This document shows, piece by piece, positions 21,413-64,000 of a stretch of DNA of 64,000 nucleotides. The DNA is from Parabacteroides chinchillae (GTDB lineage: Bacteria > Bacteroidota > Bacteroidia > Bacteroidales > Tannerellaceae). The stretch lies in assembly GCF_900108035.1 (NCBI RefSeq), contig NZ_FNVS01000006.1:124001-188000 (forward strand), in the 5' to 3' direction. Every line of letters begins with the position of its first letter. Within the stretch, counting starts at the first letter, position 1. The position numbers and the translations under genes are program-made. The notes below the pieces were generated by a model. That model searched no databases. It was given only the letters and a program-made list of their open reading frames with translations, and was not told the origin of the DNA.

Positions 21413-21444
21413 GTATCGATAAATAACGATAACAATAAATAGGA

Positions 21445-22186: not shown

Positions 22187-23328
22187 AGAAAGCATTAGTC
22201 AATACACGAGTGTCGGTAAAGCTCCGCAAATCTGAATATCGTGATGAATGGTATCTTTATGTGGAATCTTATCCTGTATTTCAATCCGGAAAAGATACGC
22301 CACAAAGAGTGCGTGAATATCTCAATCGTACCATTACAACACCTATTTGGGATAAGTCACGCAATGCAAGGACTAATGCCGAAGGCAAAACCACTTATAA
22401 GCCGAAGCGAGATTTGAACGGTGTCATTCAATGTAAGTCGCAATTAGACCAGGAATCATGTATCTATGCCGACAAGGTCAGAAGCCTACGACAAAAGGAG
22501 TACGACAATGCAGCTTTATATGCCGATACCGATGCAGAACAGGCGGAGCAGTTGGAACGCTCCCGAAGTAATTTCATTGAGTACTTCGACCATGTGCAGC
22601 GAACAAGGCATGCCCATAGCTCTGATTCTATCATTGTCAACTGGAGGAGAGTGCATGAATTATTGAAGATTTTCGCAAAAGGTGACACCATTCTCTTTTC
22701 GCAAATAGACTTAAAGATGGTTGAATCGTTCCGGCAATTCATAATGAATGCCCCACAAGGAGGCACTAAACGAGGTACGATTTCTCAAAATACAGCAGCA
22801 ACCTATTTCTCTATCTTCAAAGCCGGATTGAAACAGGCTTTTATAGACGGATATCTGACTATTGATATTTCTGCAAAAGTCAAAGGCATTCAAGAAAGGG
22901 AAAGCCGGAGAGAATATCTCACGGTAGAGGAATTGAACCGACTGGCTCAAACACCTTGTGACCCATTACTGAAACGTGCTGCCTTGTTCTCTGCTTTAAC
23001 AGGAATCCGTCATTGCGACATTCAGAAGTTGAAGTGGTCGGAAGTGGAAATGTTCAATGGAGGCTATCGGTTGAATTTTACTCAGCAAAAGACAAAAGGA
23101 GTTGAATATATGCCTATATCAGAGCAAGCATATAATCTCTGTGGAGAGCCAAAAGAGGGTGAACTTTTGGTTTTTGCCGGACTTCCTGACCCTTCTTGGA
23201 TAAACCGTCCTGTCAAAAAGTGGATTGAAGCTGCCGGAATCACCAAACACATTACCTTCCATCAGGCAAGGCATAATAAATTTTCTTTTCCTTTGGAAAT
23301 GAGTAATTTGCAAAGGTTTTCTTTTTGA
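22183..23328 (+). pseudogene. Tyrosine integrase of the outer element, 5' part, cut by the nested element
   Basis: Codons 1-360 (to 23262) give an arm-binding/SAM-like region (about 1-220) and the catalytic start with the first Arg (ALFSALTGIRHCDIQKLKW) and ITFH of the HxxR box. From 23263 the frame runs into foreign DNA (QARHNKFSFPLEM and on) and stops at 23328 without the catalytic Tyr. The missing 58 codons lie at 48667-48843, in frame. The fused product would have 418 residues. Without the Tyr the protein should be inactive, so the outer element is probably locked in place. Confidence 0.85.
23257..23262. repeat. Left copy of the TTCCAT crossover sequence (attL)
   Basis: TTCCAT here and at 48661-48666 flank the nested element. 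Taking one copy out restores the integrase reading frame (ITFH joined to CFRHSYATLQL). The true core could be a base or two longer or shorter. Confidence 0.6.
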
Positions 23329-48660: not shown

Positions 48661-48666
48661 TTCCAT
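48661..48666. repeat. Right copy of the TTCCAT crossover sequence (attR)
   Basis: This copy joins the nested element to the 3' part of the split integrase. See the left copy at 23257-23262. Confidence 0.6.
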
Positions 48667-48843
48667 TGTTTTAGGCACAGCTACGCAACCCTGCAACTGG
48701 CTGGAGGAACTGATATTTATACGGTCAGCAAAATGTTGGGACATACAAATGTGCGAACAACACAGGTGTATGCAAAGGTTGTTGATGAAAAGAAAGAGAA
48801 AGCTACAGAAACCATTAAATTGGATTTATCTCAAACAAAATAA
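48661..48843 (+). pseudogene. Tyrosine integrase of the outer element, 3' part
   Basis: The 60 codons from FHCFRHSYATLQLAGGTDIYTV on carry the second half of HxxR and the catalytic Tyr (SKMLGHTNVRTTQVYAKV). A fortuitous ATG at 48574 in the nested element lies in frame and would add 29 unrelated residues. Joined to codons 1-358 at 22183-23256 it restores a 418-residue integrase. Terminator at 48867. Confidence 0.85.
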
Positions 48844-48866
48844 CCATTATTATACTTTGTAAGTAT

Positions 48867-48906
48867 AGCCATCTGCGTAAAATCTGCGTGGGTGGCTTTT
48901 TGTTTT
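48867..48906 (+). terminator. Terminator after the split integrase
   Basis: AGCCATC (48867-48873) pairs with GGTGGCT (48891-48897) around a loop with a repeated TCTGCGT, followed by T5GT5. Confidence 0.65.
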
Positions 48907-49130
48907 TATCTATGGTCTTTTCTTCTGACCATCTTATGATCCCTTGATGATTGAAGACATTATCATAAAAATCTACTACTGATATTCTCCACTATTCATG
49001 TTGATAATCAATGGGTAATCCTTATGATGATTATGTTTCGTTACTGCTTATTTATGTGATGTATTACACTATGAAATCAGTATGCGTAATCGCTGTTATT
49101 TTGCCGAAAAATCAAAAAACAAGTAGCAAT

Positions 49131-49490
49131 ATGAGTGAGAAGAACATTACATTTGAAGATTTACCCAAAGCAATGTCGTGGTTGATGGATAAATTGAATG
49201 AGCTGGATTCTAAAATAGATGGATTAAACAATCAGAATCAAAGCGTTCCAACCGAACAATGGATGAACCTTAAGGAATTGTGTGATTATATTCCCAGTCA
49301 CCCGGCAGAGCAAACTGTATATGGCTGGACGAGTTGTCATCTAATCCCATTCCACAAAAGAGGGAAGCGTATCATGTTTCTAAAATCGGAAATTGACGAA
49401 TGGCTCCATGCCGGCAAAATCAAATCTGATAAAAACTTGGAAGATGAAGCCGCCCAATTCATAAAGTCAAAAAGAAATACCAAATTCTAA
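49131..49490 (+). CDS. Excisionase-type HTH protein of the outer element
   Basis: The 119-residue form starting MSEKNITFEDLPKAMSWLMDKL is preferred over the open frame to 49011, because this opening and coiled coil are typical of the family. MNLKELCDYIPSHPAEQTVYGWTSCHLIPFHKRGKRIMFLKSEIDEWLHAG is an HTH_17-type domain. It overlaps the next gene (the ATG shares the stop region), so they are coupled. Confidence 0.8.
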   Translation: MSEKNITFEDLPKAMSWLMDKLNELDSKIDGLNNQNQSVPTEQWMNLKELCDYIPSHPAEQTVYGWTSCHLIPFHKRGKRIMFLKSEIDEWLHAGKIKSDKNLEDEAAQFIKSKRNTKF

Positions 49491-50863
49491 TGGATTCAAC
49501 CAATTTATGCAATGCGCTCAGAATGGAATTTGAAGGGATCTTTGAAAACAAGATTCCTTTGGATGCTTTTCCTGCCAAAATTCAAGATATGATATTGGCT
49601 CTATCCCGACAAGAGAATTATTCCATAGAATATATGATGGCTTCTCTTTTGGTGGCAGTGTCAACCGCTATCGGCAACGCTGTCAATATTCGTATTCGTG
49701 GTGGATGGATTAGTAATCCTGCCCTTTATATGATATTGGTAGGTCGTCCCGGAATGGGCAAAACCCCACCTTTGGATTTTGCATTCCGTCCTATCCGAAA
49801 GCATGATGCCAAAATCATCAAACAATTTAAATTGGATATGGAGCATTATAATAGCTTGGTTGAAAACAATAAGGCTAAAAAAGACAAGTCCTCTTCATTG
49901 CCGGACAAACCAATTTTACGAAGAACCATCATATCCGATTTTACACCGGAAGCTTTAATGCGTGCGTTGGATGACAATCAGCGAGGTGTCGTGGTATATG
50001 TGGATGAAATTATGGGAATGTTTAATGCCGTGAATCAATATAGCAAAGGACAACTCATTGAGCAGCTATTGACAGCCTTTAGCGGAAAACCATTGGATAT
50101 TTCAAGATGTAGCATCCCTGTACCTATTCATATAGAGCATCCTTTTATAAATATTGTCGGCACGATGCAAACGACACGTATGCACGAACTGATAGAGAAA
50201 GGATATAAAGACAATGGGCTGATAGACAGAATAATTTTTGTTTATCCATCGTCTCAGGAAATTTCAGATTGGGGGCTGGATGAAGAATCTTCCGTATCAA
50301 CTTTTGGTAAATACTCATCAATGTGGGATTCTATTATAAATAAGGTAATTAGTTTGCCATTTATAGAGAATGAAGATGACAGAGCCATACATAATGTATT
50401 GGAATTTTCTTCGGAAGCCAAAGCCTATTTTACAAACTGGCGCAATAATGCAGTTCGGGCTGTTAATCAAATCCAAGATGATGGATTGGTGGATAGCAGA
50501 GTGATTAAAGCTCCCATGATTACGGCTCGTTTAGCTTTAGTCTTGCAAATCCTTCGTTGGGCTTGCGGTGAAGAACACAAGGATTTTGTGGATATTGACT
50601 CAACCAAATCTGCTATTGCATTGAGTGAATACTTTGAGAACTGTTATACCAACATTCAGAAATATATGTTGCGAGAGAGCGTTGAACCGCAAAAAAGAGA
50701 ATTGCTTGATTGCCTTTCCGCAACTTTCACTACTGCCGATGCCATTCAAGCCGGAAAAGAAGTAGGGTTGTCGGAAAGGTCGGTAATGTATTCTTTGGTT
50801 AGCCTTGCTACGAATAAGGTTATCAAGAAAGTAAAGCGAGGTGAATATGAGAAGCTGCAATAA
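49490..50863 (+). CDS. DUF3987-like AAA ATPase (replication type)
   Basis: A 457-residue protein. Walker A is GRPGMGKT (85-92), Walker B VVVYVDE (about 167-173); a helical C-terminus carries an HTH-like end (ADAIQAGKEVGLSERSVMYSLVSLATNKVIKKVKRG). Such proteins accompany primase-like proteins and MobA in Bacteroidales mobilizable elements and plasmids and are thought to be helicase or primase-helicase parts. Confidence 0.82.
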   Translation: MDSTNLCNALRMEFEGIFENKIPLDAFPAKIQDMILALSRQENYSIEYMMASLLVAVSTAIGNAVNIRIRGGWISNPALYMILVGRPGMGKTPPLDFAFRPIRKHDAKIIKQFKLDMEHYNSLVENNKAKKDKSSSLPDKPILRRTIISDFTPEALMRALDDNQRGVVVYVDEIMGMFNAVNQYSKGQLIEQLLTAFSGKPLDISRCSIPVPIHIEHPFINIVGTMQTTRMHELIEKGYKDNGLIDRIIFVYPSSQEISDWGLDEESSVSTFGKYSSMWDSIINKVISLPFIENEDDRAIHNVLEFSSEAKAYFTNWRNNAVRAVNQIQDDGLVDSRVIKAPMITARLALVLQILRWACGEEHKDFVDIDSTKSAIALSEYFENCYTNIQKYMLRESVEPQKRELLDCLSATFTTADAIQAGKEVGLSERSVMYSLVSLATNKVIKKVKRGEYEKLQ

Positions 50864-50874
50864 ACGACACCTTT

Positions 50875-50951
50875 TGCAGTTTGCAGTTGTTGCAGTTTGC
50901 ACTTTGCGCTGACATAGGATTTCTGCAAAACTGCAATAAGTGCAAACTGCA
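50875..50951. repeat. Iteron-like TGCAGTTTGCA repeats
   Basis: TGCAGTTTGCA occurs at 50875-50885 and 50891-50901; the complement occurs as TGCAAAACTGCA (50924-50935) and TGCAAACTGCA (50941-50951). Two copies face two inverted copies across about 22 bp, and TGCAGTTTGCACTT / AAGTGCAAACTGCA form a 14-bp perfect inverted repeat. A replication origin or regulator site is inferred. Confidence 0.55.
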
Positions 50952-50978
50952 CGGACTGCAATAACAAAATGAAGAAGT

Positions 50979-51998
50979 ATGGCTGAATATAGATTTTCTC
51001 TTCAAAAATATAAGCGTGGGTCAAAACTTTCATGCCCGAAGTGTGGAAAGAAACAATGTTTTGTCAAGTACATAGATAGCCAAGGAGAAATAACTTTTCC
51101 TGATTATGTAGGCAGATGTGACCATGAGCAATCTTGCCAATACCATTACACTCCATCGGATTATTTTCATGATAACCCAATGGTAGTGGATTACAACAAG
51201 GATAACTTCATTGAAGCCGATAAGCCTAAGCCCAATTTACTGCCTCCAACCTCTTTTGTTGACAATGAACTAATGAAACGTACTCTTACTAACTATGGTA
51301 TGAATCCATTGTACATCTACCTGTCTGGGATGTTGGGTAAAGATGAGACTTCTCGGATATTCCAACTATATCATGTTGGCACATCAAAGAAGTGGGGCGG
51401 TTCTACTGTCTATTGGCAAATTGATTGGCAAGGTAATGTACGAACAGGGAAGATAATGTTGTATGATGCAGAAACAGGACATCGGACAAAAGAGCCAAGA
51501 AGTTATGTTAGTTGGGTACATACAGAACTGAATCTCCCAAACTACAATTTGAAGCAATGTTTGTTTGGCGAACATCTGTTATCTGAGAATCCGACCAAAC
51601 CTGTTGCTATTGTGGAAAGCGAAAAATCCGCTTTGATAGCTACCCATTATATGCCGGAATTTATATGGTTGGCAACAGGTGGAATGCATGGATGCTTCAA
51701 GTCTGACGTGGTAAGTGTATTGAAAGGTCGGTCGGTTATGCTATGCCCGGATTTGGGTGCAAGAGAGGTTTGGCAAACCAAGATGGCTTTACTCACTTCC
51801 GTATGTTCTAAAGTTGTATTGAGTGATAGTTTGGAACAATGCGCCACAGACGAACAGCGCAAGAACGGACTTGATATTGCGGATTTCTTATTGACGACTG
51901 AAACACCTGCGATGATACTTCAAAAGATGATAAAGCGAAATCCAAACCTACAAACTTTGATTGACTGCTTGCATTTGGAACTGGTGGATTCCGGTTAG
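50979..51998 (+). CDS. Toprim-domain protein with N-terminal zinc finger (DUF6371-like)
   Basis: A 339-residue protein. The N-terminus has a CHC2-like zinc site (LSCPKCGKKQCFVKY and GRCDHEQSCQYHY); a Toprim core follows (VAIVESEKSALIATHYM and VMLCPDLGAREVWQTKMALL). It resembles DnaG-type primases of plasmids and probably primes replication of the element with the ATPase upstream. Confidence 0.8.
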   Translation: MAEYRFSLQKYKRGSKLSCPKCGKKQCFVKYIDSQGEITFPDYVGRCDHEQSCQYHYTPSDYFHDNPMVVDYNKDNFIEADKPKPNLLPPTSFVDNELMKRTLTNYGMNPLYIYLSGMLGKDETSRIFQLYHVGTSKKWGGSTVYWQIDWQGNVRTGKIMLYDAETGHRTKEPRSYVSWVHTELNLPNYNLKQCLFGEHLLSENPTKPVAIVESEKSALIATHYMPEFIWLATGGMHGCFKSDVVSVLKGRSVMLCPDLGAREVWQTKMALLTSVCSKVVLSDSLEQCATDEQRKNGLDIADFLLTTETPAMILQKMIKRNPNLQTLIDCLHLELVDSG

Positions 51999-52291
51999 TG
52001 ATGTGTTTTTGGAGAAGCCAAACTAAGGGGAAAGTAAAACTATTGATTATCCAAATGGATATAGGTGACAATAGCCACTCTTAAAGTTGACAGACAAATG
52101 GCATAGTTCGGACAAAGACAATGCTTGCATTAAGGTATGTAATGCCCCATTTTTAATGGGTATTCTATGCAAGAAGTACCACCGTCCGACAAAATGGTTT
52201 CACTCATTTATCGTCTTGGAGGCTTCTTGCATTACTCGCAGGCTCGCAATGGATAGAACATTTTATTAATAAATTCCAGTTATAAACGCTT
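51999..52291. other. Candidate oriT region upstream of mobC
   Basis: No gene. CTTGCAT (52124-52130) pairs with ATGCAAG (52167-52173); inside lie GCATTA/TAATGC (52127-52145) and CCCAT/ATGGG (52146-52160). CTTGCATTA recurs at 52226-52234. Location before the relaxosome genes suggests the transfer origin. Confidence 0.45.
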
Positions 52292-52666
52292 ATGGATATA
52301 CAACAAAACAATGGAAAACAGGGTGTTCGTACTCGTCATATAGACATTCGTCTGACTGAAAATGAGTATGAAATGATAGTAGAAAAAGCTGCCGAATGTG
52401 GACTGACACTTAGTAACTACGGACGAAAATTATTGCAAAATCACCATCCAAACAAACGACTTTCAGACGAGGAAGTACAAGGATTGAACTCTTTATCGGA
52501 TGCACGAGCCGACCTTATCCGCATTCAGAATGTACTCAAAGGTAAACCTGATGAGATTAAAAAACGATATTTCCGAGATGAGAATTATATGCGTGCTTGG
52601 ATAGAGGCAGTAAATAGGCTTATTGTCCGATGGGGACAAATACGAGACAGTATAAATCAAATTTGA
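52292..52666 (+). CDS. MobC-like relaxosome protein
   Basis: A 124-residue protein: RTRHIDIRLTENEYEMIVEKAAECGLTLSNYGRKLL is a ribbon-helix-helix type DNA-binding start, followed by helices ending WIEAVNRLIVRWGQIRDSI. It is 4 bp before the relaxase, so it probably binds oriT and helps nicking. Confidence 0.82.
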   Translation: MDIQQNNGKQGVRTRHIDIRLTENEYEMIVEKAAECGLTLSNYGRKLLQNHHPNKRLSDEEVQGLNSLSDARADLIRIQNVLKGKPDEIKKRYFRDENYMRAWIEAVNRLIVRWGQIRDSINQI

Positions 52667-52670
52667 AATT

Positions 52671-53870
52671 ATGATAGCACAAGGAAAGGCAATTTCTCAT
52701 GGAGCAAGAGCCATTGAGTATTCTATGGAAAAAGATAAAGCCCAGCTCGTTAAGGTGAATGACTTGCCGGAAAATATAGAACCTTTGGCTATGTGGTCAC
52801 GGATGATGCAACACCAGCATCAATGTATGAAAGACAGATATAATCCGAAGCCCATAAAGCTGAACGCACTGCGCTTTGAAATATCTCCAGCCAAAGAAGA
52901 ATCGGCAGGATGGACAATGACGGATTGGCAGAATTTGGCGGATGAGTTTATTGCAGTACTTGACGGCATTGACCGAAGATGTGGCAAACCAGATAGTCAT
53001 CTTAAACCGACCAATATCAAAAATAGCCAGTATGTTGTTTCGTTACACACTGACAGCAAAAGTGGCATCCCTCACTTGCATATTGTAGCTAACCGCATAG
53101 ACAATATGGGCAAGACAAACGATGCGCATTATATTGGTGAACGTGCCGTTCATGCTGCCAACATCATCAATGAGAGACGTGGCTGGGTGCAATCCGTGCA
53201 ACGTCGTGATGAGAATATTCAGCAAATCAGTGAAGACTGCATCGCAATATTGAAAGCTATGCCAGAATTTGATTGGGAAACTTATAGCCAAATGTTAAAC
53301 GCTAAGGGGTACGATATTAAGTTGATAAAGGACGATAAGGAAGTGGTCAAAGGGTACGCTATACGAAAAGGGAACTCTATTTATAAATCCTCGATATTGG
53401 TTAAAAGTCGAAAATTGATGCCATCAAAAATTGAAGCGACTTGGATGGGATTACATGCTTCTGATAAACAAACTGCAATTCAGTCAAAGGAAGTATGTAC
53501 TCAAACGATGGCGCATAATAATAAAGAGGTGATGCCACAATCAAAGCCTTCTATTTACCACTATTCCATAACAGTGGATGGAGAACAACTTGAGGTTGAT
53601 ATACCAGATATGGTTAAGTCTGTCTTTGACGAAGAGTTTGGAAGCCTTGATGAAGAAGTCAAACAGACCAATTTATTCAAAGTTGCCGCCTTACTATTTG
53701 CCAGATATTTGGATGCTGCTACTTCTATGGCGGTTTCAAGCGGAGGTGGTGGCAGTCCCGGTAGCGGATGGGGTAAAGATAAGGACGATGATGAGCGTAA
53801 CTGGGCTGTTCGTTGTGCAAAAATGGCAAAATGGCTCTGCAAACCGATTAAACGTAGCAGGGGTAGATAG
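52671..53870 (+). CDS. mobA: Relaxase/mobilization nuclease (MobA, MOBP type)
   Basis: A 399-residue relaxase. Motif III is LHTDSKSGIPHLHIVANR, with His126, His135 and His137 as metal ligands; a candidate nicking Tyr is Tyr17 in ARAIEYSME. It cuts and pilots the transferred strand. The C-terminus is Gly/Ser-rich then basic (KRSRGR). Confidence 0.9.
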   Translation: MIAQGKAISHGARAIEYSMEKDKAQLVKVNDLPENIEPLAMWSRMMQHQHQCMKDRYNPKPIKLNALRFEISPAKEESAGWTMTDWQNLADEFIAVLDGIDRRCGKPDSHLKPTNIKNSQYVVSLHTDSKSGIPHLHIVANRIDNMGKTNDAHYIGERAVHAANIINERRGWVQSVQRRDENIQQISEDCIAILKAMPEFDWETYSQMLNAKGYDIKLIKDDKEVVKGYAIRKGNSIYKSSILVKSRKLMPSKIEATWMGLHASDKQTAIQSKEVCTQTMAHNNKEVMPQSKPSIYHYSITVDGEQLEVDIPDMVKSVFDEEFGSLDEEVKQTNLFKVAALLFARYLDAATSMAVSSGGGGSPGSGWGKDKDDDERNWAVRCAKMAKWLCKPIKRSRGR

Positions 53871-53896
53871 TATTTCATTTATAATCACATATAACC

Positions 53897-54475
53897 ATGC
53901 GTAAAAGTAAATATGACCAATCTTCTTTGCCTGTGCAGGATAGCAAGAGCATAGATAGTGATGATAACATTAGCAAAATTGAAAATCGTGTTGATTTTGA
54001 AACCGAGCTTGTAAATCTCACGAATCAGATTAAGGACATCAAAGATGTTATCCAAGAATTGAAACAGATAAAAGCATTTGTAGATGCTTCAGTGTTAACT
54101 TTTGAAGAATCAGCACAGGTTCTTAATGCTGCAGTGAAAACATCCGACAATATCCCTGATACTATTAGCCGTGCAATTATTCAGGCAGAGAATACTGTTA
54201 TAAATGTCAAACTTAGCGATGAAGACAAGTCTATTCTTACAGAATATCGCAATAAATTGATTGAAGAAGAAAAATCTTTATTTGAGAAGCAGATAACAGA
54301 ATTGAAGACACTTCATACGAATCACTGGAAAGAAGTCCATAAATGTGTGAAATCTGAAACTTCGTTTTCTCTTAATGGCAAAATAGCCAAATGTGCCGTT
54401 GTCGGATTCTGGATATTGTATGCGTATTTCTGTTTGACATTGGGAGGATTGATAATCTATATGAAATTCTTTTAA
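53897..54475 (+). CDS. Coiled-coil protein with C-terminal membrane helix (mob-associated)
   Basis: A 192-residue protein with a disordered start, a coiled coil (about 30-75, ELVNLTNQIKDIKDVIQELKQIKAF), a long helical middle and a C-terminal transmembrane helix (about 165-190). Its place after mobA suggests it tethers or assists the relaxosome. No family is recognised with confidence. Confidence 0.65.
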   Translation: MRKSKYDQSSLPVQDSKSIDSDDNISKIENRVDFETELVNLTNQIKDIKDVIQELKQIKAFVDASVLTFEESAQVLNAAVKTSDNIPDTISRAIIQAENTVINVKLSDEDKSILTEYRNKLIEEEKSLFEKQITELKTLHTNHWKEVHKCVKSETSFSLNGKIAKCAVVGFWILYAYFCLTLGGLIIYMKFF

Positions 54476-54513
54476 GGAATTGGAAGGATGGATTGACCAA
54501 CCTTCCAAATACA

Positions 54514-55320
54514 TCACCATGTTATGACCTTATCAACAATCTCTTGTTGTTCGGCACTGCTACGCCTCAAATAAATACGAGTTGTTTCAATACTTTCATG
54601 TCCCATCAGGTCAGCAAGTAGAGAAATATCGTTGAACTTCTCCAAGAAATTTTTAGCAAAGCGATGACGGAATGAATGGGGGTAAACCACTTTCTCATTC
54701 AATCCGTATTTGGCTGCGTAGTTTTTCAACTGTTGCGCAATCCCTCTTGTAGTGATACGCTCACCAAAGCGATTAAGAAAAAGATAGCCGGTGGTACGAT
54801 TGACTTTGCTAAGCCATTCTGTGGCTTCCTTGCGCAAGGACTTCGGAATGTAAATACGACGTATTTTGCCACCTTTGGTGTAGATGTCAAAATAACCCAT
54901 CTGCACGTGTTCAGCCTTCATTTGGATTAGTTCACTGACTCTTGCTCCTGTTGCTGCGAGGAAACGAACTACGAAATACCATTCTTGGTTTTCCTCCTTT
55001 TTTAGTTTGTTTTTTAGAAAAGCGTAGTCGGCATTACTGATTACATTTTCCAAGTAACTCCGCTGCTGCACTTTGACGGATTTTAATCTCAAACGAGATT
55101 TTCCCATGCTATCAAGATACTTGTTCATTGCCTGAATACGAAGATTCACTGTCTTAGGCTTGAATTTCTCAATGAGATAGGTTTTATACACAAGCAAATT
55201 GCGCTTGTTCAATTCTTTGTGCCGGGAATAATACTCTTTTACGGCATAGAGATAAGCTGCAATTGTGTTCTCCGCCATATTCCCTTGACGAAGATACGTT
55301 TCAAAATTTTCAATGTTCAT
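54514..55320 (-). CDS. Tyrosine recombinase, candidate hsdS invertase
   Basis: The 268-residue form starts MNIENFETYLRQGNMAENT (the frame extends to 55356). It has the SAM-like fold and catalytic Arg in AATGARVSELIQ, HxxR in PHSFRHRFAKNF and Tyr in MGHESIETTRIYLRRS, like XerC/D-type inversion recombinases of Bacteroidales. It lies 68 bp from the first inverted repeat of the hsdS locus, the typical place for the enzyme that shuffles hsdS. Confidence 0.88.
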   Translation of the reverse strand: MNIENFETYLRQGNMAENTIAAYLYAVKEYYSRHKELNKRNLLVYKTYLIEKFKPKTVNLRIQAMNKYLDSMGKSRLRLKSVKVQQRSYLENVISNADYAFLKNKLKKEENQEWYFVVRFLAATGARVSELIQMKAEHVQMGYFDIYTKGGKIRRIYIPKSLRKEATEWLSKVNRTTGYLFLNRFGERITTRGIAQQLKNYAAKYGLNEKVVYPHSFRHRFAKNFLEKFNDISLLADLMGHESIETTRIYLRRSSAEQQEIVDKVITW

Positions 55321-55387
55321 GTCAGATACATTATTAGTTAAACAATTCGTTATCATAATAATGTATGGTATTGCCTAATTCATTGAG

Positions 55388-55406
55388 TTCCTATTATGAG
55401 AAGTTT
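55388..55406. repeat. Inverted repeat A, left copy
   Basis: TTCCTATTATGAGAAGTTT is the exact complement of 58616-58634. It lies just before TRD1' in the silent cassette. Inversion between the copies would swap TRD1. Confidence 0.85.
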
Positions 55407-56189
55407 ATCGCTACAGGAGAGGTAAAATGCATTGATGAGGAGATTCCGTTTGAGATTCCGCAGGGGTGGGAATGGGAAAGAATTGGCAATATTTTTGAAA
55501 CAACAAGTGGTTCTACGCCATTAAGTAGGAATCCAGATTATTATAAAAATGGCAATATCAATTGGGTACGTACAACAGACTTGAACAATGGAATTTTGAA
55601 CAAAACCGAAATACAAATAACCTCGAAAGCAGTTATCGACTACAACCTTTCTATTTTACCCCAAACCTCAGTGTGTGTTGCAATGTACGGTGGTGCTGGG
55701 ACAATAGGCAAACACTGTATCTTGCATTTTGATACAACTATAAATCAATCTGTATGTGCCATCCAGCCTAATGGATTTTGTAATATGGATTACATCCATA
55801 CTTTTATTGAATATCAAAGACCATTTTGGATGGATTTTGCAGCAGGTTCAAGAAAAGATCCCAACATAAATCAACTCATTATTAAGCACTGCTTGTTACC
55901 TATTCCACCACAAGAAGAACAACTACGCATTGTTATAAAATTAAATCAATTATACCCATATATTTATCAATATGGAAATAGTCAAAATAGACTCAACCAA
56001 ATAAATAAAGAAATATGGCATAGTTTAAAAAAGTCAATTCTTCAAGAAGCTATTCAAGGCAAGTTAGTTCCACAAATAGCAGAAGAAGGAACAGCCCAAG
56101 AATTACTTGAACAGATACAGCAGGAGAAACAGAAACTTGTTAAAGAAGGCAAATTGAAAAAGGCTGCACTTAACGATAGCATCATCTAT

Positions 56190-56211
56190 AAAGGTGATGA
56201 TAACAAGTATT
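56190..56211. repeat. Inverted repeat B, left copy
   Basis: A 22-bp stretch (AAAGGTGATGATAACAAGTA plus TT) exactly complementary to 57820-57841. It precedes TRD2' and would swap TRD2. Confidence 0.85.
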
Positions 56212-56766
56212 GGGAGAAGAATGGTAAAATTGAAAAAGATATTACTAATGAGATTCCGTTTGAAATACCCGATTCTTGGTGTTGGATAAGGCTAAATAAT
56301 CTCTGTAATATCACAAATGGCTTTACCCCATTAAGAACAGAACTTAAATTCTGGAAAAATGGTAACATTAATTGGTTTACAGTTGAAGATATTCGTAAAC
56401 AAGGGGAATATATTTATGAAACAACTAAAAAAATCACGGAATTAGCAGTCAATAAGGATAGAATTGTAAGAGCTGGAAGTGTATTGTTATGTTGCACCGC
56501 TTCTGTTGGTCAATGCGCCATGACTATGATTCCTACCACAACAAATCAGCAATTTAATGCTTTAACTGTTAAAGAAGAGTATCGTTGTATTGTCAACGAT
56601 GAGTTTTTGTTTTTATTTGCGAAAACATTGGAACCAATACTACATGATTTAGCAGGAAAAACGACCTTTGAATTCATATCAGTAAAAAAAGTTGGGAACA
56701 TCCTTATCCCAATTCCACCAGTTTTAGAACAACATAGGATATGCAAAGTAGCCAATAAAGCAATAG

Positions 56767-56779
56767 CAAGTATTATGAG
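56767..56779. repeat. Inverted repeat C, left copy
   Basis: CAAGTATTATGAG is the exact complement of 57815-57827 in the active hsdS. TATTATGAG is shared with repeat A and may be the recombinase core. Confidence 0.65.
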
Positions 56780-57343
56780 CAGATAGGGAATACAAGTCGC
56801 TGTATTGATGAGGAAGTTCCTTTTAATATACCTAGTACTTGGATATGGACAAGACTTTCTTGTATCGCAAACGTATATACTGGTAATAGCATTAGTGAAG
56901 CCGAAAAGAAGTCGAAGTTCACTAATGTAAAAGGGCGCTATTATATTGGGACTAAGGATGTTGATTTAAAAAATCGGATTACATACAATAATGGGGTTGC
57001 GATTCCCGAACAGCATGAATCAGCTTTTAGGATTGCTCCTAAAAGTTCGGTGTTGATGTGTATTGAAGGTGGAAGCGCTGGAAAAAAAATTGCTGTATTA
57101 AATCAGGATGTATGTTTTGGTAATAAACTATGCTGCTTTGCAGCATATACAGAAATAAGCAAATATGTATACTACTATCTGCAATCTCCAATATTCTTAG
57201 ATATGTTTAATCAATATAAGACAGGCATCATAGGTGGTGTAAGTATTGCAAAAGTAAAAGAAATATTGTTACCATTACCTCCACTGCAAGAACAGCAACG
57301 CATTGTTGCCCAAATAGAAAAACTATTTGAGCAACTGAAATAA
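56771..57343 (+). pseudogene. hsdS: Third silent hsdS cassette (TRD2'')
   Basis: A 190-codon frame with no start, reading YYEQIGNTSRCIDEEVPFNIPSTWIWTRLSCIANVYTGNSISEA and ending PLPPLQEQQRIVAQIEKLFEQLK. It overlaps the end of the previous cassette in another frame. It is a stand-alone alternative second recognition domain. Its last 21 bp also encode the end of the active HsdS on the other strand. Confidence 0.8.
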
Positions 57344-58825
57344 TTCGTCAATGCGTTGAGTTATCCTTTTCTGTTCTGCTAAAGGTGGAATACCAATAGG
57401 CAGATTGTAGAATAACTCTTTATTGAGGTGCGGAATAGCCGCACCTCTTTTTGAATTCCTTAGCTCCGATTTATAGAACAAAATGAAAGCCAATACATAA
57501 GGCTTCCACATGACAGAAGAAAGCCATAGTTGTTTGAATGTACTCCCCATATACCCATCATCTGGAGCAGAGAATACTTCACCTGAATTTTCACCGTCCA
57601 CCAAAATGATACTATCGCCAGCTAACACAAATCGACCTTTCTCAATGATGGTCGCAGATGATTTGCCACGTAGATATTTAGCATTCAGACAAACCTCTTT
57701 TCCAAGTTTCTTTTCTCCATCCGTTAGTTGGCATATATCCTTCAATCGTAAGACAGTCCAATTATTTGGGTACTCAAAAAGTAACTCAATTTCAATCAGT
57801 TTTCCGTTTATCGTCTCATAATACTTGTTATCATCACCTTTGAAGATTATAGAATCGGTTAAGGCAGACTTCTTTAGTTTACCGTCTTTGACAAGTTGCA
57901 ATTTCTCTTGCCGTATTTTTTCGAGTAATTCTTGTGCTGTACCTTCGTCTGCAATCTGTGGAACAAGTTTTCCCTGTATTGCCTCTTGGAGAATAGACTT
58001 CTTTAGCTTATCATTGATTGAAATATTCAACTCTTCCAAGCAGTCCTGTACTTCGCTATATTTTTTTATAAGTGGCAAGAGTTCTTCTAATTTGGCAACA
58101 ATCCTCTTTTGTTCGGGAAGAGGGGGAAACGGTAATAATAATCCTTTTAAGCGATTCGCTGAAAGTCCAGGCATTGCAGTTCCTACTGAAGCTAAGTTAT
58201 TGCTTTCTTTTAATAGGTAGATAAAGTGATATACATATTCGCAAATGCCATTTACACATGGACGTAATCTATGGACATGATTTTGAAGACAAATATCATA
58301 ATCATAGTTCCAAATTGCAGAACGACCGTAACCTGCACCACCTTCACAAACAAGCAAATCGCCTTTTGTAGCAGAACACGTTTTTATTTCTTCCTCTGTA
58401 AAATTCATAACTTTTACATTGTCAAGAATGAAATTTCCCCAATATAGATTGGATGTTGTAATAAATTTCTGTGGTGTTCCGCCATTCTTATTACTACCAC
58501 TTTGCTGCTTTCCACTTGTATGATTGAAGATGTTGCCAATGCGTGTCCATTCCCACCCATTTGGAATCTCAAACGGAATCTCGTCATCAATGCACTTCAC
58601 CTCTCCCGTAGCAAGAAACTTCTCATAATAGGAATTATCGTCACCACGGTAAATGATAGATTCGTTTTTGTCTTTTTTGATTTTCTTTTCCTTGACCAGT
58701 CGGGCTTTTTTAGCTCTGATACGTTCAAGAAGTACCGATGCCGGTTCGTCATTAGGGTCTTGCGGTACAAGTTTCCCCTGTATCGCCCACTGGAGTATGC
58801 TGTTTTTTAATTGCTTACCGTTCAT
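57323..58825 (-). CDS. hsdS: Type I restriction specificity subunit, expressed copy
   Basis: A 500-residue full-length HsdS: N-terminal conserved region (NSILQWAIQGKLVPQDPNDEPASVLLERI), TRD1 (about 70-245), central helices (LKKSILQEAIQGKLVPQIADEGTAQELLEKI), TRD2 (about 330-480) and terminal helices (PPLAEQKRITQRIDELFQLL). It reads the bipartite DNA target for HsdM and HsdR. It is oriented with hsdR and hsdM. Confidence 0.93.
   Translation of the reverse strand: MNGKQLKNSILQWAIQGKLVPQDPNDEPASVLLERIRAKKARLVKEKKIKKDKNESIIYRGDDNSYYEKFLATGEVKCIDDEIPFEIPNGWEWTRIGNIFNHTSGKQQSGSNKNGGTPQKFITTSNLYWGNFILDNVKVMNFTEEEIKTCSATKGDLLVCEGGAGYGRSAIWNYDYDICLQNHVHRLRPCVNGICEYVYHFIYLLKESNNLASVGTAMPGLSANRLKGLLLPFPPLPEQKRIVAKLEELLPLIKKYSEVQDCLEELNISINDKLKKSILQEAIQGKLVPQIADEGTAQELLEKIRQEKLQLVKDGKLKKSALTDSIIFKGDDNKYYETINGKLIEIELLFEYPNNWTVLRLKDICQLTDGEKKLGKEVCLNAKYLRGKSSATIIEKGRFVLAGDSIILVDGENSGEVFSAPDDGYMGSTFKQLWLSSVMWKPYVLAFILFYKSELRNSKRGAAIPHLNKELFYNLPIGIPPLAEQKRITQRIDELFQLLK
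57820..57841. repeat. Inverted repeat B, right copy (with repeat C at 57815-57827)
   Basis: Exact complement of 56190-56211, at the start of TRD2 of the active hsdS. The overlapping CTCATAATACTTG (57815-57827) pairs with the third cassette. Confidence 0.85.
58616..58634. repeat. Inverted repeat A, right copy
   Basis: Exact 19-bp complement of 55388-55406, at the start of TRD1 of the active hsdS. Flanking sequence on the TRD side remains about 85-90 percent similar for some 50 bp. Confidence 0.85.
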
Positions 58826-58840
58826 TTTATTCTAATTGAC

Positions 58841-59338
58841 TTAGAAGTTTTCGTCTTTTTGTTTTTCCTTCAGATAGAACTGATATAACTTTTTTCCTAT
58901 CTTGTCTTTTTTGAAGATACGTTCATGATTCATAGGTGTCATAGACAACCGAATTTTTGCCACACCTTCATTCAAGATTTCAAACTGCTGTGGAGTAATT
59001 CTGAATTGAGCAGTAGAACTTATTTCTGTGACGGGGATTACAATATTTCCACTTATAACACCAGCAGATTGACTTCCATTCCCAATCACAGTTCCTCTTA
59101 ATTCAAGATATTTACCTGTGAATGTCCGAATTTTCATAGTTGGTTCAGCGAGAAAATTCATTCTGTCTGAACGCACTGTAGCTACTATCGAATAAATGGT
59201 GTCTTGCTTAGCTACACTGTACTTCATATTGCAACCTTCGGCTGCAAGTGCTTTATAAGTATAACCTACTGTTTGTGCTTTAGCGTTGAGTCCTAAAATA
59301 ATACAAAACAGTAATAATATAATTTTTATAGTTTTCAT
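58841..59338 (-). CDS. Secreted hypothetical protein within the restriction locus
   Basis: A 165-residue protein with a clear signal peptide (MKTIKIILLLFCIILGLNAKAQ). The mature part is beta-rich (YTYKALAAEGCNMKYSVAKQDTIYSIVATVRSDRMNFLAEPTMKIRTF) and has a basic tail. No family is recognised. A secreted protein between a Doc gene (2 bp away) and hsdS (15 bp) is odd; it may ride in the operon as phage-defence accessory or be an unrelated insert. Confidence 0.7.
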   Translation of the reverse strand: MKTIKIILLLFCIILGLNAKAQTVGYTYKALAAEGCNMKYSVAKQDTIYSIVATVRSDRMNFLAEPTMKIRTFTGKYLELRGTVIGNGSQSAGVISGNIVIPVTEISSTAQFRITPQQFEILNEGVAKIRLSMTPMNHERIFKKDKIGKKLYQFYLKEKQKDENF

Positions 59339-59340: not shown

Positions 59341-59820
59341 TTAATCTTGTTCGTAATCTTCGCCTTGTATTCCTAATTCGCCCTTACTCATGGCATTGGC
59401 AATATCTATTTTCAGTTCCTCGTCATAGTCTTTACTTGTCAAAAAGCTATTGACGATACGCAGCAACAAATCTTGGTCGATATTCGATGCTGCCACATGG
59501 TAAATGATAGATTCCAATGTACGCATACAGATGCAAGCGTGCCAGTAGTAGTTATTCTTGTGTAAGAAGTATGCGCCTAAAGTCAATGCAATACGCTTAT
59601 TCCCATCATTGAAGAAATGCCCGGAACAGAATCTATACATCAGATAGGTTAGTTTGTCGGCAAAGGTTGGATAGTATAAATCATTTTGCACAAAATCCAA
59701 TGTTGCACGAATACCACCTTCATCACGCACTCCTTCAAAACCACCATCGCTGGCATCAATCATTTTGCCATAGATGTTTAAGGCTTCATCGTAATCTATG
59801 TAAATAATTTTCTTACTCAT
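59341..59820 (-). CDS. Doc/Fic-family protein (death-on-curing type)
   Basis: A 159-residue protein with the Fic motif HFFNDGNKRIAL (about 67-78), the HxFxxGNKR form of the Doc branch, which can phosphorylate or AMPylate targets. GGFEGVRDEGGIRATLDF is the typical Doc N-terminus. It overlaps the upstream DNA-binding gene by 8 bp, as toxin and antitoxin genes often do. Confidence 0.85.
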   Translation of the reverse strand: MSKKIIYIDYDEALNIYGKMIDASDGGFEGVRDEGGIRATLDFVQNDLYYPTFADKLTYLMYRFCSGHFFNDGNKRIALTLGAYFLHKNNYYWHACICMRTLESIIYHVAASNIDQDLLLRIVNSFLTSKDYDEELKIDIANAMSKGELGIQGEDYEQD

Positions 59821-60829
59821 CTTCTGCCTGCTTTAAGCGTTTAAGCACATCTTTGTTATCAGCTAAGATACGGTCAAAATCAATAGACTGGTCACCGATG
59901 AATCGTTCAAACTCTTCAGGAGTAACAGCTTGCAGGTAATCTGCTATATTACCATGATACGCATCCCGGAAACTGAAATCCCTTGAAGCCATTTTGGTTC
60001 TGGCATCATTCAGATAAGGTTTCTGCATAGGGTGTTCGGCAAGTTCGTTTACAATATGTTCCACTTCGTCAACGGTAAGCAACCTTCCACCATTTTCTTT
60101 GAATCGTTCACTGATTGCTGCACCCACTCCGTTTTCAAAAGAGGATATAACCAATAGAACTTCTGAATACAGCGTGTGCCGAACATTGTCTTTTGAATCC
60201 AACTTCAATACTTCCCGATACTCTTTGGCATTCTCTTTAAAAACAGCCTTATAGATAAAATCCGTAATCTGAGAATACTTGTATGTATGATGCCCATCGA
60301 CATATTGATTGATGGCAGAGGTAAGATTTTTCCGATAGTTTTCTTCTGTGATTGCAGCAGGAAGATAATGCACATCCCTGCGATTAATATATTTAGTTCC
60401 TCCTCCGGTCTTTTCGTTGATGGTGGTAATCACAAAATCCAATATAAGACTACGGACTTTTTTAGCTTTCTCACTCTCTGTAAGCAACATACCCATGTCT
60501 AAGAATGAACGGAAGTTAAACAATCCGAGCTGTGTCGTTTTGCTCCCGACATTTATGACGGGAGCAAATTGCAACTTCAACTCTTTCAGGTGTTTACCCT
60601 TACATAAAATATATCCGTTAGCCGATAATTCATCGGAATGTTTTTCCAAGTAGCGTTCTATGGTTCGTTCCTCTACTTCGTAGAAATCGGCAACCATTTT
60701 TTTTGTAAAGCGATACTCTCCCTCAAAGAGCATTCCTTCAATGTCAAGATGCTCCTGTACTTTACTAACCGCAAAACGATTGTTGAGTACATTCTGCCTT
60801 TCTATGTTTGAGATTGTTAAATCTTTCAT
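59813..60829 (-). CDS. DNA-binding protein (RhuM/antirepressor-like), possible Doc partner
   Basis: A 338-residue protein. Residues about 35-75 (YRFTKKMVADFYEVEERTIERYLEKHSDELSANGY) look like an HTH; LFNFRSFLDMGMLLTESEKAKKVRSLILDFV resembles the KilA/RhuM-type region, and a helical C-terminus follows. Such proteins occur in Bacteroidales type I restriction loci beside Fic/Doc genes. It may act as antitoxin or regulator; this is inference. Confidence 0.7.
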   Translation of the reverse strand: MKDLTISNIERQNVLNNRFAVSKVQEHLDIEGMLFEGEYRFTKKMVADFYEVEERTIERYLEKHSDELSANGYILCKGKHLKELKLQFAPVINVGSKTTQLGLFNFRSFLDMGMLLTESEKAKKVRSLILDFVITTINEKTGGGTKYINRRDVHYLPAAITEENYRKNLTSAINQYVDGHHTYKYSQITDFIYKAVFKENAKEYREVLKLDSKDNVRHTLYSEVLLVISSFENGVGAAISERFKENGGRLLTVDEVEHIVNELAEHPMQKPYLNDARTKMASRDFSFRDAYHGNIADYLQAVTPEEFERFIGDQSIDFDRILADNKDVLKRLKQAEDE

Positions 60830-60844: not shown

Positions 60845-62353
60845 TCAGTTGCACGATTTTATATCTATACCGAGAATCTTTTGAATCTCAGAAAGCGTTT
60901 TGTCTATTTCATGGTCGAGTGCAGCACGTTTCTCAAAATACTGTTTGAGCAGTTCTGCCGGAGGGAGTATTTCTTCTTCCTCTTTCGGAAATTTACATTG
61001 ATCGAAGTTACAATCCAAATCTATCAGCTGTTGGGCTGTAAACACACGGCTTTTTTCTCCCACTTCGTCATTGATGATTTCTTTTCGATCTTTCCACCAT
61101 TCTTGAATAGGCAGCGTGTGTTCCACCTTCATAGGTTTGGTTTTAGAGAAGTGTTTATACCCTTCCGGCATATCCAAACGATAGAACCATGTCTCTTTGG
61201 TCTTGAACCCTTCTTCGCAGCCATCGGCTGCCTCATTATTAAAGAAAAGAATATTGGTTGCAATAGAGGTATATGGAGAGAATATAGAACCCGGCAAACG
61301 GATGATAGTATGCAAATTGAACTTGCGGAGTAGATTCTCTTTTAATGCGAGTTTAGCTCCGTCCGTACCAAACAAGAAGCCATCAGGGATAATCACACCG
61401 CATCGACCACCAACTTTAAGGCGGTACATGATAAGTGCGATGAACAAATCCGCAGTTTCACTTGAACGATATTGCACCGGGAAGTTGCTTTTTATGCTAT
61501 CTTCCGTGCTACCGCCATACGGAGGATTCATGCCGATAACATCCACCTTGTCGCTTTCCTTGAAATCAGTGATATTTGTTCCAAGCGAATCACAATTTGC
61601 AATGTTGGGAGCCTCTATATCATGGAGCAATAAATTTGTAATACTCAACAAATACGGCAATGGTTTCCACTCTTGCCCCACAACGGCATTTTGCAGCTTT
61701 TCTCCATCTTCGGCAGAATGAACATTTTTAGCCATATAGTTAAGAGCAGAGGTAAGAAAACCTCCTGTGCCGCTGGTGAAGTCACCAAAGGTCTCGCCCA
61801 ATTTCGGGTCAAGCATCATCACAATAAAATCGGTCAATGCTCGTGGGGTATAAAACTCACCGGCATTTCCCGCTGATTGTAGGTCTTTCAAGATACCTTC
61901 GTAAATATCTCCGAATGTGTGACGGTCGTCTGCATCGTCAAATTCAATTTCGTTTACAATATTGACTACTTGGCGCAGAAGCGTTCCATTCTTCATATAC
62001 TGGTTCAAGTCAGCAAATGTTTCCTGAACAATACTTTTGGCTCTTGGTGTATTGGCATCTATCGGAAGATTTTTCAAGGCAGGAAACAATTTCTCGTTGA
62101 CGAAAGAGAGCAATGCTTCTCCTGTCAACGCTTCGCCGTCTTTCTCGTCTACTGCCCAATTGCGCCAACGCAAATCTTCAGGGATGATAGACTTATAGTT
62201 CTCATCTTTGTATTCCCATGTCTCTTCCTGAGTATCATAGACTTTCAAGAAGAACATCCAAGTCATTTGCTCTATTCGCTGTGCGTCACCATTGATACCT
62301 GCATCTTGACGCATGATATTTTGGATTCGCTTTATGATGTTGTTTACTGCCAT
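60845..62353 (-). CDS. hsdM: Type I restriction-modification DNA methyltransferase
   Basis: A 502-residue N6-adenine methyltransferase. The helical N-terminal domain covers about 1-155; the SAM motif is DFTSGTGGFL (191-200, a variant of DPACGTGGF) and the catalytic motif NPPYGG is at 276-281. It modifies the HsdS-defined site and also forms the restriction core. It lies 2 bp after hsdR. Confidence 0.95.
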   Translation of the reverse strand: MAVNNIIKRIQNIMRQDAGINGDAQRIEQMTWMFFLKVYDTQEETWEYKDENYKSIIPEDLRWRNWAVDEKDGEALTGEALLSFVNEKLFPALKNLPIDANTPRAKSIVQETFADLNQYMKNGTLLRQVVNIVNEIEFDDADDRHTFGDIYEGILKDLQSAGNAGEFYTPRALTDFIVMMLDPKLGETFGDFTSGTGGFLTSALNYMAKNVHSAEDGEKLQNAVVGQEWKPLPYLLSITNLLLHDIEAPNIANCDSLGTNITDFKESDKVDVIGMNPPYGGSTEDSIKSNFPVQYRSSETADLFIALIMYRLKVGGRCGVIIPDGFLFGTDGAKLALKENLLRKFNLHTIIRLPGSIFSPYTSIATNILFFNNEAADGCEEGFKTKETWFYRLDMPEGYKHFSKTKPMKVEHTLPIQEWWKDRKEIINDEVGEKSRVFTAQQLIDLDCNFDQCKFPKEEEEILPPAELLKQYFEKRAALDHEIDKTLSEIQKILGIDIKSCN

Positions 62354-62355: not shown

Positions 62356-64000
62356 TTAAGCTGATTTATATATTTGATATTCAAGTTCTCTGATAGCTTG
62401 TTCAAAAGCGACTTTGCCACCGAATAACTTTATGATTTTAGTCGGCTTTCCGATGCTATTGAATGGTGGTATCTCCAATATATTCGCCTTTTCAAAATCA
62501 AGAATGCCATTTTCTGCATATTTTTCAAGAAGAGCCTCCAATACTTCGCGAGCTTTGCCTTCATACTTTCCGAAATAGTTGCGTTTCTTAACATTGTTCG
62601 CTCTTTCTTTTCTGGTCAAAGGAGGTTGGTCAAACGCAACATGACATATCACATCAAAGATGTCAGCGTCCTTCAATGCAGGATTCGCTTCACGTACTGC
62701 GTCTATCAAGATGGCATATTCCTTTAACTCATCCATAACCGCCTGTTTGCGTTCTGCTTCAGTCCACGTTTGTACGAAATCATCCAAACTTTGATAGTGT
62801 CGCAACAGTTGCTTTCTCGCAAACGACTGAACGCTTTCCGTTCTCATGGTTTTGCCATCCTCTCCCAAAACAGATACTATCTCATGAGCAATACGAATAT
62901 CTTTACCATTGATGACATATTTCTCATGAGGCTCAGACACAGTGGGAGTTTCTGGAGTATCAATGATTTTGTAAGGCTTTGGCTTTTTACCACCTCCTTT
63001 TGGCGGTTCCGGATCGCCATCAAATGCAGGATCTTTGAATTTTGCCGTTGCATTACGGAAGTCAAGGATTTCCAGATGCCACTTGCCTTTGTCTTTTCTA
63101 AGTCGTGTGCCACGCCCGATGATTTGCTTAAATTCCGTCATAGAGCCAATTTCTTTATCAATGACGATTAAGCCACAAGTTTTGCAGTCCACTCCTGTAG
63201 ATAGAAGTTCGGAGGTAGTAACAATTACCGGATAAGGCTCGTCAACACTGATAAAGTTGTCTAACTGCTTCTTCCCCTCTTTGTCCTCTCCGACAATGCG
63301 TGTTACGTAGTAAGGAGATTTTTTACATAAATCGCTATTCATATTGATAAGCAGTGTTCGCATTTCGGCGGCTTCCTCAATATCTGAACAGAACACGATT
63401 GTCTTTGTCATACGACCGATGTCGTATAACATTTGGGTAATCCTGTGTGCTACTACTTTACGCCTTAACTTAATGGCAAGGTCACGACCTATATTCTGTC
63501 TTTGATATAATTTCTGTTCAATTTCCTTTCCTAACAAATCTATTTCACCTTCATCGGGAGTCCAGCCCTGCAAATCAACGTTGATGAAGTCGGCAGTAAC
63601 CCGATATGGAGCCAAGAAACCATCTTGGATTCCTTGAAGAAGGGAATAGGTATATACCGGCTCTCCGAAATAATCCAAGTTGTTTGCTCCTTCATCAGCT
63701 TTCGGGGTAGCAGTCATACCGATTTGGGTAGCCGAGCTGAAATACTCCAATACTTTGCGCCATGCAGAATCGTCCTTTGCGCTACCACGATGGCACTCGT
63801 CAACGATAATCAAATCAAAGAAGTTTGGCTGCACCTCCAAAAACGGATCTGGCTTGCCCTCTTTTCCAACCAGTTGGTGGTATAACGCCATATATACCTC
63901 GTATGAGGAGTCAATTTTCTCTTCGCCTTCCCCAACAGAAGTTATCTTAGTCATAAACTTCTTGAAAGGTTTGAAGTCTTGCACCATTGTTTGGTCAATG
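62356..64000 (-). CDS. hsdR: Type I restriction enzyme, HsdR (3' part; runs off the right edge)
   Basis: At least 547 residues of the C-terminal part; the frame stays open to the window edge (reading IDQTMVQDFKPF), so the nuclease and first helicase motifs lie outside. Seen are DECHRGS (motif II, DEAD/H helicase), GMTATP (motif III), VFCSDIEEA, TTSELLSTGVDCKT and IIGRGTRLRKD (motif VI), then an EcoEI-like C-terminal domain. It translocates DNA and cuts unmodified phage DNA. Confidence 0.94.
   Translation of the reverse strand, partial: IDQTMVQDFKPFKKFMTKITSVGEGEEKIDSSYEVYMALYHQLVGKEGKPDPFLEVQPNFFDLIIVDECHRGSAKDDSAWRKVLEYFSSATQIGMTATPKADEGANNLDYFGEPVYTYSLLQGIQDGFLAPYRVTADFINVDLQGWTPDEGEIDLLGKEIEQKLYQRQNIGRDLAIKLRRKVVAHRITQMLYDIGRMTKTIVFCSDIEEAAEMRTLLINMNSDLCKKSPYYVTRIVGEDKEGKKQLDNFISVDEPYPVIVTTSELLSTGVDCKTCGLIVIDKEIGSMTEFKQIIGRGTRLRKDKGKWHLEILDFRNATAKFKDPAFDGDPEPPKGGGKKPKPYKIIDTPETPTVSEPHEKYVINGKDIRIAHEIVSVLGEDGKTMRTESVQSFARKQLLRHYQSLDDFVQTWTEAERKQAVMDELKEYAILIDAVREANPALKDADIFDVICHVAFDQPPLTRKERANNVKKRNYFGKYEGKAREVLEALLEKYAENGILDFEKANILEIPPFNSIGKPTKIIKLFGGKVAFEQAIRELEYQIYKSA

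Follow-up and report, generated by a model that had tools for sequence, protein, structure and literature searches.

When several spare recognition domains lie within reach of one DNA-inverting recombinase, which of them can be exchanged and which stay in place? This question is raised by a type I restriction-modification (R-M) locus in the genome of Parabacteroides chinchillae, situated in a 64,000-nucleotide stretch of contig NZ_FNVS01000006.1 (positions 124,001 to 188,000, forward strand; hereafter the window, whose own numbering is used throughout). The locus carries an active specificity gene, hsdS, on the minus strand, silent target-recognition domains (TRDs) on the plus strand, and a neighboring gene for a PsrA-like tyrosine recombinase. 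The kind of system is already known, and the locus is an added PsrA-type hsdS inversion system. Very probably, it is a phase-variable R-M system of the EcoAI type in which exchange is matched by spacer sequence and one site, here called B, is predicted to be silent or slow. The locus is ordinary in kind and well supported; its relatives expose a compact grammar of recombination sites and, with it, a sharp prediction for this locus.

Sites and cassettes of the hsdS locus

Profile searches revealed that the type I R-M locus is complete on the contig, with an EcoAI-type hsdR, hsdM, and an hsdS with two TRDs. Since HsdR, HsdM, and a two-TRD HsdS are encoded together, the locus is, as judged by sequence, a member of the EcoAI/FtnUII type I R-M systems, presumably the class named type IB. 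The active hsdS (57323–58825, minus strand) encodes 500 aa, in which the N-terminus is followed by TRD T1, a central region, and TRD T2, and it matches Methylase_S in two stretches (2.7e-31). The plus strand holds silent TRDs, as a first-pass annotation of this DNA had proposed, and these number three. The slot-1 cassette T1' (55388–56209), identified by profile and TRD comparison, contains a TRD and the central conserved region. The slot-2 cassettes are T2' (56204–56786), whose stop codon (56784–56786) lies directly beyond site C, and T2'' (56767–57343), whose stop overlaps the end of the active hsdS, tail to tail. All five Methylase_S matches of the genome fall within this single locus, and the frames of the recombinase, HsdM, HsdR, HsdS, and the silent TRDs are open.

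The recombinase gene (54514–55356, minus strand) adjoins the cassettes and lies on the same strand as the active hsdS. Its 280-aa product belongs to the PsrA family of tyrosine recombinases (invertases), matches Pfam Phage_integrase (4.4e-29), and, among plasmid records, shares 63.2% identity over 96% of the query with the annotated psrA of a Streptococcus dysgalactiae plasmid; the earlier assignment to the tyrosine recombinases is therefore correct. The protein looks intact and retains ATGARVSEL, HSFRHRFA, and GHESIETTRIYL, which we take to be the catalytic boxes of tyrosine recombinases. Its best solved chains were a XerC-like protein (4a8e) and XerA, and six chains were matched overall, from XerC-like, XerA, XerD, XerH, and IntI4 proteins. 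In Xer/dif-type recombination, two arms flank a 6-bp central region. Compared with this arrangement, many of the sites described here and below read ATAA-N6-TTAT, with a putative 6-bp spacer, but left arms vary widely. By its recombinase family and by its oppositely oriented silent TRDs with shared sites, the locus can be assigned to the PsrA-type invertible hsdS systems. In a DNA search, the related invertases of two other loci, L092 and L095, had no match in E. coli.

Three exact inverted repeats coincide with TRD starts, in agreement with the first-pass annotation: A (19 bp, 55388–55406 and 58616–58634), B (22 bp, 56190–56211 and 57820–57841), and C (13 bp, 56767–56779 and 57815–57827). A further exact 20-bp inverted pair (55440–55459 and 58563–58582) is located directly inside A, in the conserved TRD start. 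A, B, and the 20-mer are the only exact inverted repeats of at least 19 bp in the window; a repeat of this length also occurred in 10 of 100 first-order Markov resamples of the window. The length of C is within chance: when the 4.7-kb locus was resampled 300 times, a 13-bp inverted repeat was present in 166 cases, so that C is supported not by its length but by its position and by the related loci. The sites are enclosed by two imperfect inverted repeats, one of 195 nt (77%) and one of 123 nt (83%).

The sites define two exchange slots, slot 1 with two TRDs and the spacer TTCCTA, and slot 2 with three TRDs and the spacer CAAGTA. The silent copy of site A (55388–55406, plus strand) has its spacer at 55388–55393 and the right arm TTATGAG at 55394–55400; in the active copy (58616–58634, minus strand), these are found at 58634–58629 and 58628–58622. 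In slot 2, the silent site C (56767–56779, plus strand) consists of the spacer at 56767–56772 and TTATGAG at 56773–56779, and the active-gene site (57815–57841, minus strand) consists of the spacer at 57827–57822 and TTATGAG at 57821–57815. The silent site B (56190–56216, plus strand) contains the same spacer at 56204–56209, followed by a degenerate right arm, TTGGGAG (56210–56216); it reads TATTGGGAG and lacks TATTATGAG. The earlier description of three cassette sets needs revision, since the CAAGTA common to B and C rules out three independent sets. The core suggested for A and C, TATTATGAG, is indeed present at both, but the crossover is likelier to occur at the 6-bp spacer, or at the spacer plus TTAT.

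Site grammar and movement among related loci

Among the 80 related loci, 60 have TRDs adjoining the recombinase; for 13 of the remaining 20, the fetched sequence starts no more than 400 bp from the match. Sites were aligned across 64 loci (the window and 63 fetched loci; L014, which duplicates L047, was omitted), and accepted sites were obtained for 60 of them. These 60 loci share a common plan: a variable left arm often ending in ATAA, six bases, and TTATGAG. Other loci have other hexamers, e.g., TTTACA/CTCTTA, CAGGCA/TTGTTA, and ACGGCA/CAGACC. With a looser caller, which accepts spacers at most one base from another in the same locus and by which 43 of 247 sites were set aside, the hexamer was equal in 106 of 108 within-slot pairs (37 loci), the two exceptions being L089 and a broken TRD in L026 that was assigned to the wrong slot. 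Between slots, it was equal in 2 of 172 pairs (42 loci), both of them the L026 case. Exact-TTATGAG sites found without the locus spacers (n = 154) gave equality in 50/50 within-slot and 0/101 between-slot pairs, a check that removes the caller bias, on fewer sites. Moreover, the YYE at the TRD start is encoded by TATTATGAG in 107 of 116 protein-anchored cases versus 16% expected from codon use, which points to a constraint at the DNA level. Without a matching crossover sequence between slots, first- and second-position domains would stay in place. The short flip sites resemble a code that sets which parts can be exchanged and which are held fixed. A subfamily at about 61–66% identity has other slot-2 arms, e.g., TTATCCG or TTATACG, as matched pairs in some loci; the term degenerate is therefore meaningful only inside the TTATGAG group.

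Domains have changed places among these relatives. T1' is silent in the window, and a TRD with 97% amino acid identity to it sits in the active gene of L019 (Prevotella sp. MGM1); between the two loci, the left flanks of the active and silent places are unmoved, and the sequence changes over at TTCCTA. T2 homologues form the largest TRD cluster, with 19 members at 60% identity, ten of which (window included) are on the recombinase strand and nine on the opposite strand. In 15 of the 18 fetched T2-homologue loci, hsdM lies on the recombinase strand (in the other three, it is not in the stretch), indicating that this strand is the active one where checkable. The cluster to which T2 (57323–57827) belongs is also the most widespread of the set, with varying partner TRDs.

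Rearrangements are also seen in nine Enterococcus faecalis plasmids, whose recombinase is 65.5% identical to that of the window and whose flanks are about 99% or more identical to one another, yet which differ by inversion. The coding left arm is adjoined by TRD2 in four records and by TRD3 in five; TRD4 is found in one record and TRD5 in seven, and one record is cut. Right arm and TRD move together while the left arms remain, which places the TRD2/TRD3 crossover within CGCCTATTAT, a 10-bp shared core. No mixing of TRD2/3 with TRD4/5 was seen in the nine records, despite matching sites. In L103, both slot-1 sites (4110 and 9890) have TATCCA instead of the TTTACA found elsewhere, so that the pair still matches, as if the spacer had been altered in both copies together. 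L104 and L107 carry an identical slot-1 TRD at both ends, which may reflect gene conversion or the assembly of mixed states. Phase variation, as first proposed, is well supported by the PsrA-like recombinase, by relatives with opposite cassette orientations, and by near-identical plasmids differing by inversion. For the P. chinchillae locus, no second state was noticed in IMG/VR, where three relatives were present. The alignment to L022 reaches the contig start there precisely at 55406, where repeat A ends on its inner side; this edge might be an assembly fork between two inversion states.

The degenerate arm of B recurs as a pattern. With near-canonical arms defined by at most one mismatch to TTATGAG, both arms were near-canonical in 68 of 98 same-spacer inverted pairs versus 1 of 32 direct pairs (Fisher p 6e-12, in a test that ignores relatedness, includes pairs sharing sites, and was counted on the loci where the pattern was first noticed). 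Within the 32 direct sets, the later site was always near-canonical, and the 5' site was degenerate, with two or more mismatches, in 31; the lone exception, L067 (TTATGAA), is included in the arm and cluster counts. At the 5' sites, 12 arm sequences occur, and the TRDs that follow them fall into 21 clusters at 60% identity (15 clusters at 40%). In L051 and L055, the changes in the 5' arm are purely synonymous, TACTACGAG replacing TATTATGAG, which is what selection on the DNA site would predict.

A follow-up set of 47 loci, 18 of which were excluded as overlapping the first set, left 29 to be examined. L113, L173, and L176 fit the third-site rule, L117 was borderline, L111 and the E. faecalis loci L106 and L107 did not fit, and L171 had no direct pair; the remainder had other arms, unclear sites, or no TRD match. 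The overlap exclusion was distorted by N runs: L172 has no N-free 60-mer in common with the first set and, when examined, gave no site. L162 is a separate locus, 97–98% similar to L039, and the overlap between L112 and L029 is partial. L111, L112, and the E. faecalis plasmids, with L117 borderline, rule out that direct third sites are disabled in every locus. In L020, the same TTGGGAG-headed TRD is present on both strands (4965–5543 and 6580–7158), through duplication, gene conversion, or an assembly artefact.

Proposed switching and alternative explanations

In the proposed mechanism, the minus strand would express one HsdS and the plus strand would hold the spares T1', T2', and T2''. The PsrA-like recombinase would exchange strands within or beside the 6-bp spacer, between a left arm often ending in ATAA and TTATGAG, a position suggested by site anatomy, with the crossover located only in the E. 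faecalis relatives. Recombination would require equal spacers, so that no domain would cross between slot 1 and slot 2. The TTCCTA pair (A) would invert the whole 3.2-kb block and alter both TRDs, and the CAAGTA pair (C with the active site) would alter the second TRD. With B predicted to be silent or slow, T2' would move only with T1', and the array would not be excised by direct recombination. The inversion at 56190/57841 put forward in the first-pass annotation does have its repeat, B, but the degenerate right arm suggests that it may be rare or absent. Switching would alter the recognized sequence, hence the methylome and the restriction specificity; we infer this activity in P. chinchillae, together with the number of states and the effect on methylation. 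If all sites were active, 8 configurations, 6 specificities, and deletion-competent pairs would result; with T2' locked by an inactive B, there would be 4 configurations and 3 specificities, and deletion would not occur.

Beyond this locus, and as a tentative proposal to which we give slightly less than even weight, PsrA-type shufflons of Bacteroidota, Spirochaetes, and Clostridia may share a two-rule grammar, consisting of a slot spacer and a usually disabled direct third arm. The spacer would differ per slot and shift between lineages, and in the window T1' and T2' would form a fixed pair, giving three specificities. Several observations weigh against these interpretations. P. chinchillae is represented by one genome, in one orientation, and swapped states were seen in relatives only. 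The T1' swap in L019 is sharp at its left, but its right edge is gradual, with identity fading through the central region. The acceptance rule of the looser caller favors within-slot agreement, and the loci are related, hence their spacer pairs are non-independent. As for the third site, the loci on which the inactive-B rule was counted are those on which it was noticed, and the later set was mixed. In E. faecalis and S. dysgalactiae, direct sites carry no more than one mismatch; two TTATGAG sites stand in direct order in the Segatella plasmid L112 (one of its three direct pairs being near-canonical); and R. albus L117 and L067 carry the borderline TTATGAA. Finally, the gapped scaffold L162 (400 N) shows two direct TTATGAG slot-2 sites, if the scaffold is right, which lowers the probability of the two-rule grammar.

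The closest alternative retains the same system but with B fully active: TTGGGAG would be tolerated, the three slot-2 cassettes would rotate to give 6 specificities, and T2' would be excisable. This is possible, if rather doubtful. B retains the full spacer and left arm across 22 bp, the one-mismatch arm TTATAAG recombines in E. faecalis, some relatives have direct near-canonical pairs, and six hsdSA alleles are described for pneumococcus with PsrA (PMC12324116). The direct-set counts given above argue the other way (5' sites with at least two mismatches in 31 of 32, L067 being among the 12 arms and 21 clusters; both arms near-canonical in 68 of 98 inverted versus 1 of 32 direct pairs). Degenerate arms, instead of marking switched-off sites, could also form a separate site class in which like recombines with like (TTGGGAG with TTGGGAG). 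Unrelated inner TRDs do have TTGGGAG or CTTCGAG in common, L020 has TTGGGAG sites in both orientations ahead of the same TRD, and the distant subfamily has TTATCCG or TTATACG at slot 2, sometimes as matched pairs. However, a single CAAGTA-TTGGGAG site is present in the window, hence without a partner, and the second copy in L020 may have arisen in assembly, which makes this explanation unlikely.

Homologous exchange of the RecA type through the 123–195-bp imperfect repeats would dispense with site-specific recombination. The repeats themselves (195 nt, 77%; 123 nt, 83%), the gradual right edge of T1' in L019, and the report that pneumococcal inversions at the longer IR2 and IR3 continued without psrA (PMC4948785) speak for it; yet the E. 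faecalis TRD2/TRD3 crossover lies inside 10 bp, with neighbors differing on both sides, and we regard this route as very improbable here. We attach still less credence to a decayed or frozen shufflon, with remnant silent cassettes and an inactive recombinase. Such a state would agree with the lack of an inverted state in the genome and with the confinement of all five Methylase_S matches to one locus, but not with the open frames of the recombinase, HsdM, HsdR, HsdS, and silent TRDs, nor with A sites identical across 19 bp, nor with the neighboring part of the element, which two other species, with largely different TRD sets, share at 98.6–99.4% identity. Spacer-matched site-specific inversion with a silent or slow B remains the preferred explanation.

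Genomic setting and known systems

The locus is located within a mobile element: the segment 48486–55475 is 98.6% identical in L019, and 48661–55483 is 99.4% identical in L020 (Phocaeicola plebeius). At E ≤ 1e-100, relatives of the recombinase were present in 8 of the 123 genomes from its family (the one assigned to Parabacteroides sp. PM6-13) and in 5 of 393 genomes drawn from its order, its own included in both, and in 38 of 399 genomes drawn from the P. plebeius family, that genome included. In 16S comparisons with 9 named genomes, the best full-length match was 87%. Window segments 21395–23262 and 48661 onward are contiguous in L020, L021, L022 (partly matched), and L024, and the intervening 23263–48660 (about 25.4 kb), with a short repeat at its ends, interrupts this stretch. 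This segment seems to be an insertion nested within the mobile element's integrase gene, and intact copies were found in relatives. Mobilization-type genes occupy 49011–54475, with the integrase remnant on one side and the hsd locus on the other; they include a relaxase match at 52671–53870, and the Segatella hominis plasmid L112 has a similar gene order with a MobV relaxase and integrases.

Upstream of hsdS on the same minus strand are a protein with a signal-like start by eye and no family match in Pfam or NCBIfam (58841–59338), a Fic/Doc-family gene (59341–59820; PF02661, 1.3e-10), a weak ORF6N match under the Pfam cut-off (59813–60829; PF10543, 0.0012), the 502-aa hsdM (60845–62353; N6_Mtase 8.1e-56, HsdM_N 3.4e-12), and hsdR of the EcoAI/FtnUII family (62356–64000). 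The in-window part of hsdR scored 731.8 bits against NF046051 (cut-off 550); the gene extends beyond the window end and is complete on the contig at 772 aa (L119, 357–2675). Elsewhere, L060, L061, and L062 have close recombinase relatives beside an open reading frame (ORF) of about 1300 aa and shorter opposite ORFs, with inverted repeats where the sequence encodes an I-G-N-P-P-Y-like motif; this is possibly an invertible single-chain methyltransferase system. In L068 (3398–7902), the same recombinase family is found beside glycine-rich repeat proteins with several inverted repeats, possibly a surface-protein shufflon.

The locus is a clear added member of the PsrA-type switches, on a mobile element about 99% common to other gut species. 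Its relatives yield a testable rule for how arrays avoid scrambled domain order and, in many loci, self-deletion; if this rule is true, short sites in the sequence alone could show how many methylome states an hsdS shufflon has. Inversion of hsdS with tyrosine recombinases or integrases has been reported from Mycoplasma, pneumococcus, E. faecalis, Listeria, and Bacteroides fragilis (PMC4948785, PMC7394358, PMC3090145, PMC5729914, PMC5903667). In term searches and passages of the hsdS-inversion literature, neither a spacer code nor a disabled third site was described.

Within the Bacteroidales, the B. fragilis shufflons BB (NCTC 9343) and 638R resemble the window in hsdS TRD shuffling and an adjacent tyrosine integrase, and eight specificities were reported (PMC3090145). 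Identity with shufflon BB is rejected, as its 38-bp inverted repeat has no match in the window at up to three mismatches. Inverton group 145 of hCom2 (PMC11892184), which spans Bacteroidota and Firmicutes_A, has invertons in restriction subunit S genes with a nearby tyrosine recombinase, relaxase, and MobC; the likeness lies in gene content. E. faecalis has invertible type I loci (PMC7394358), possibly those of the plasmids examined here, with a PsrA-family recombinase and the same site plan. The plasmids have the spacers TTTACA and CGCCTA and show inversions between records; unlike in the window, direct near-canonical slot-2 sites coexist. The S. dysgalactiae copy has its recombinase between the silent cassettes, whereas that of the window lies outside them, and its slot-2 arms read TTATRRG with no clearly degenerate third site, in contrast to TTGGGAG at B.

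Close likeness is also shown by the pneumococcal cod/SpnIII locus (PMC4948785, PMC7096588), which comprises hsdR, hsdM, one expressed hsdS, opposite silent hsdS, a PsrA-family invertase, and a short repeat within hsdS. There, deletion and complementation established that PsrA inverts hsdS; psrA deletion abolished hsdSA/hsdSB inversion (IR1, 15 bp) but not that with hsdSC, and excision between direct repeats was reported (PMC4948785). Later work, according to PMC7096588, finds that PsrA uses IR1-like sequences to act at each of the three repeats. Six hsdSA alleles are reported for pneumococcus, whereas three specificities are predicted for the window.

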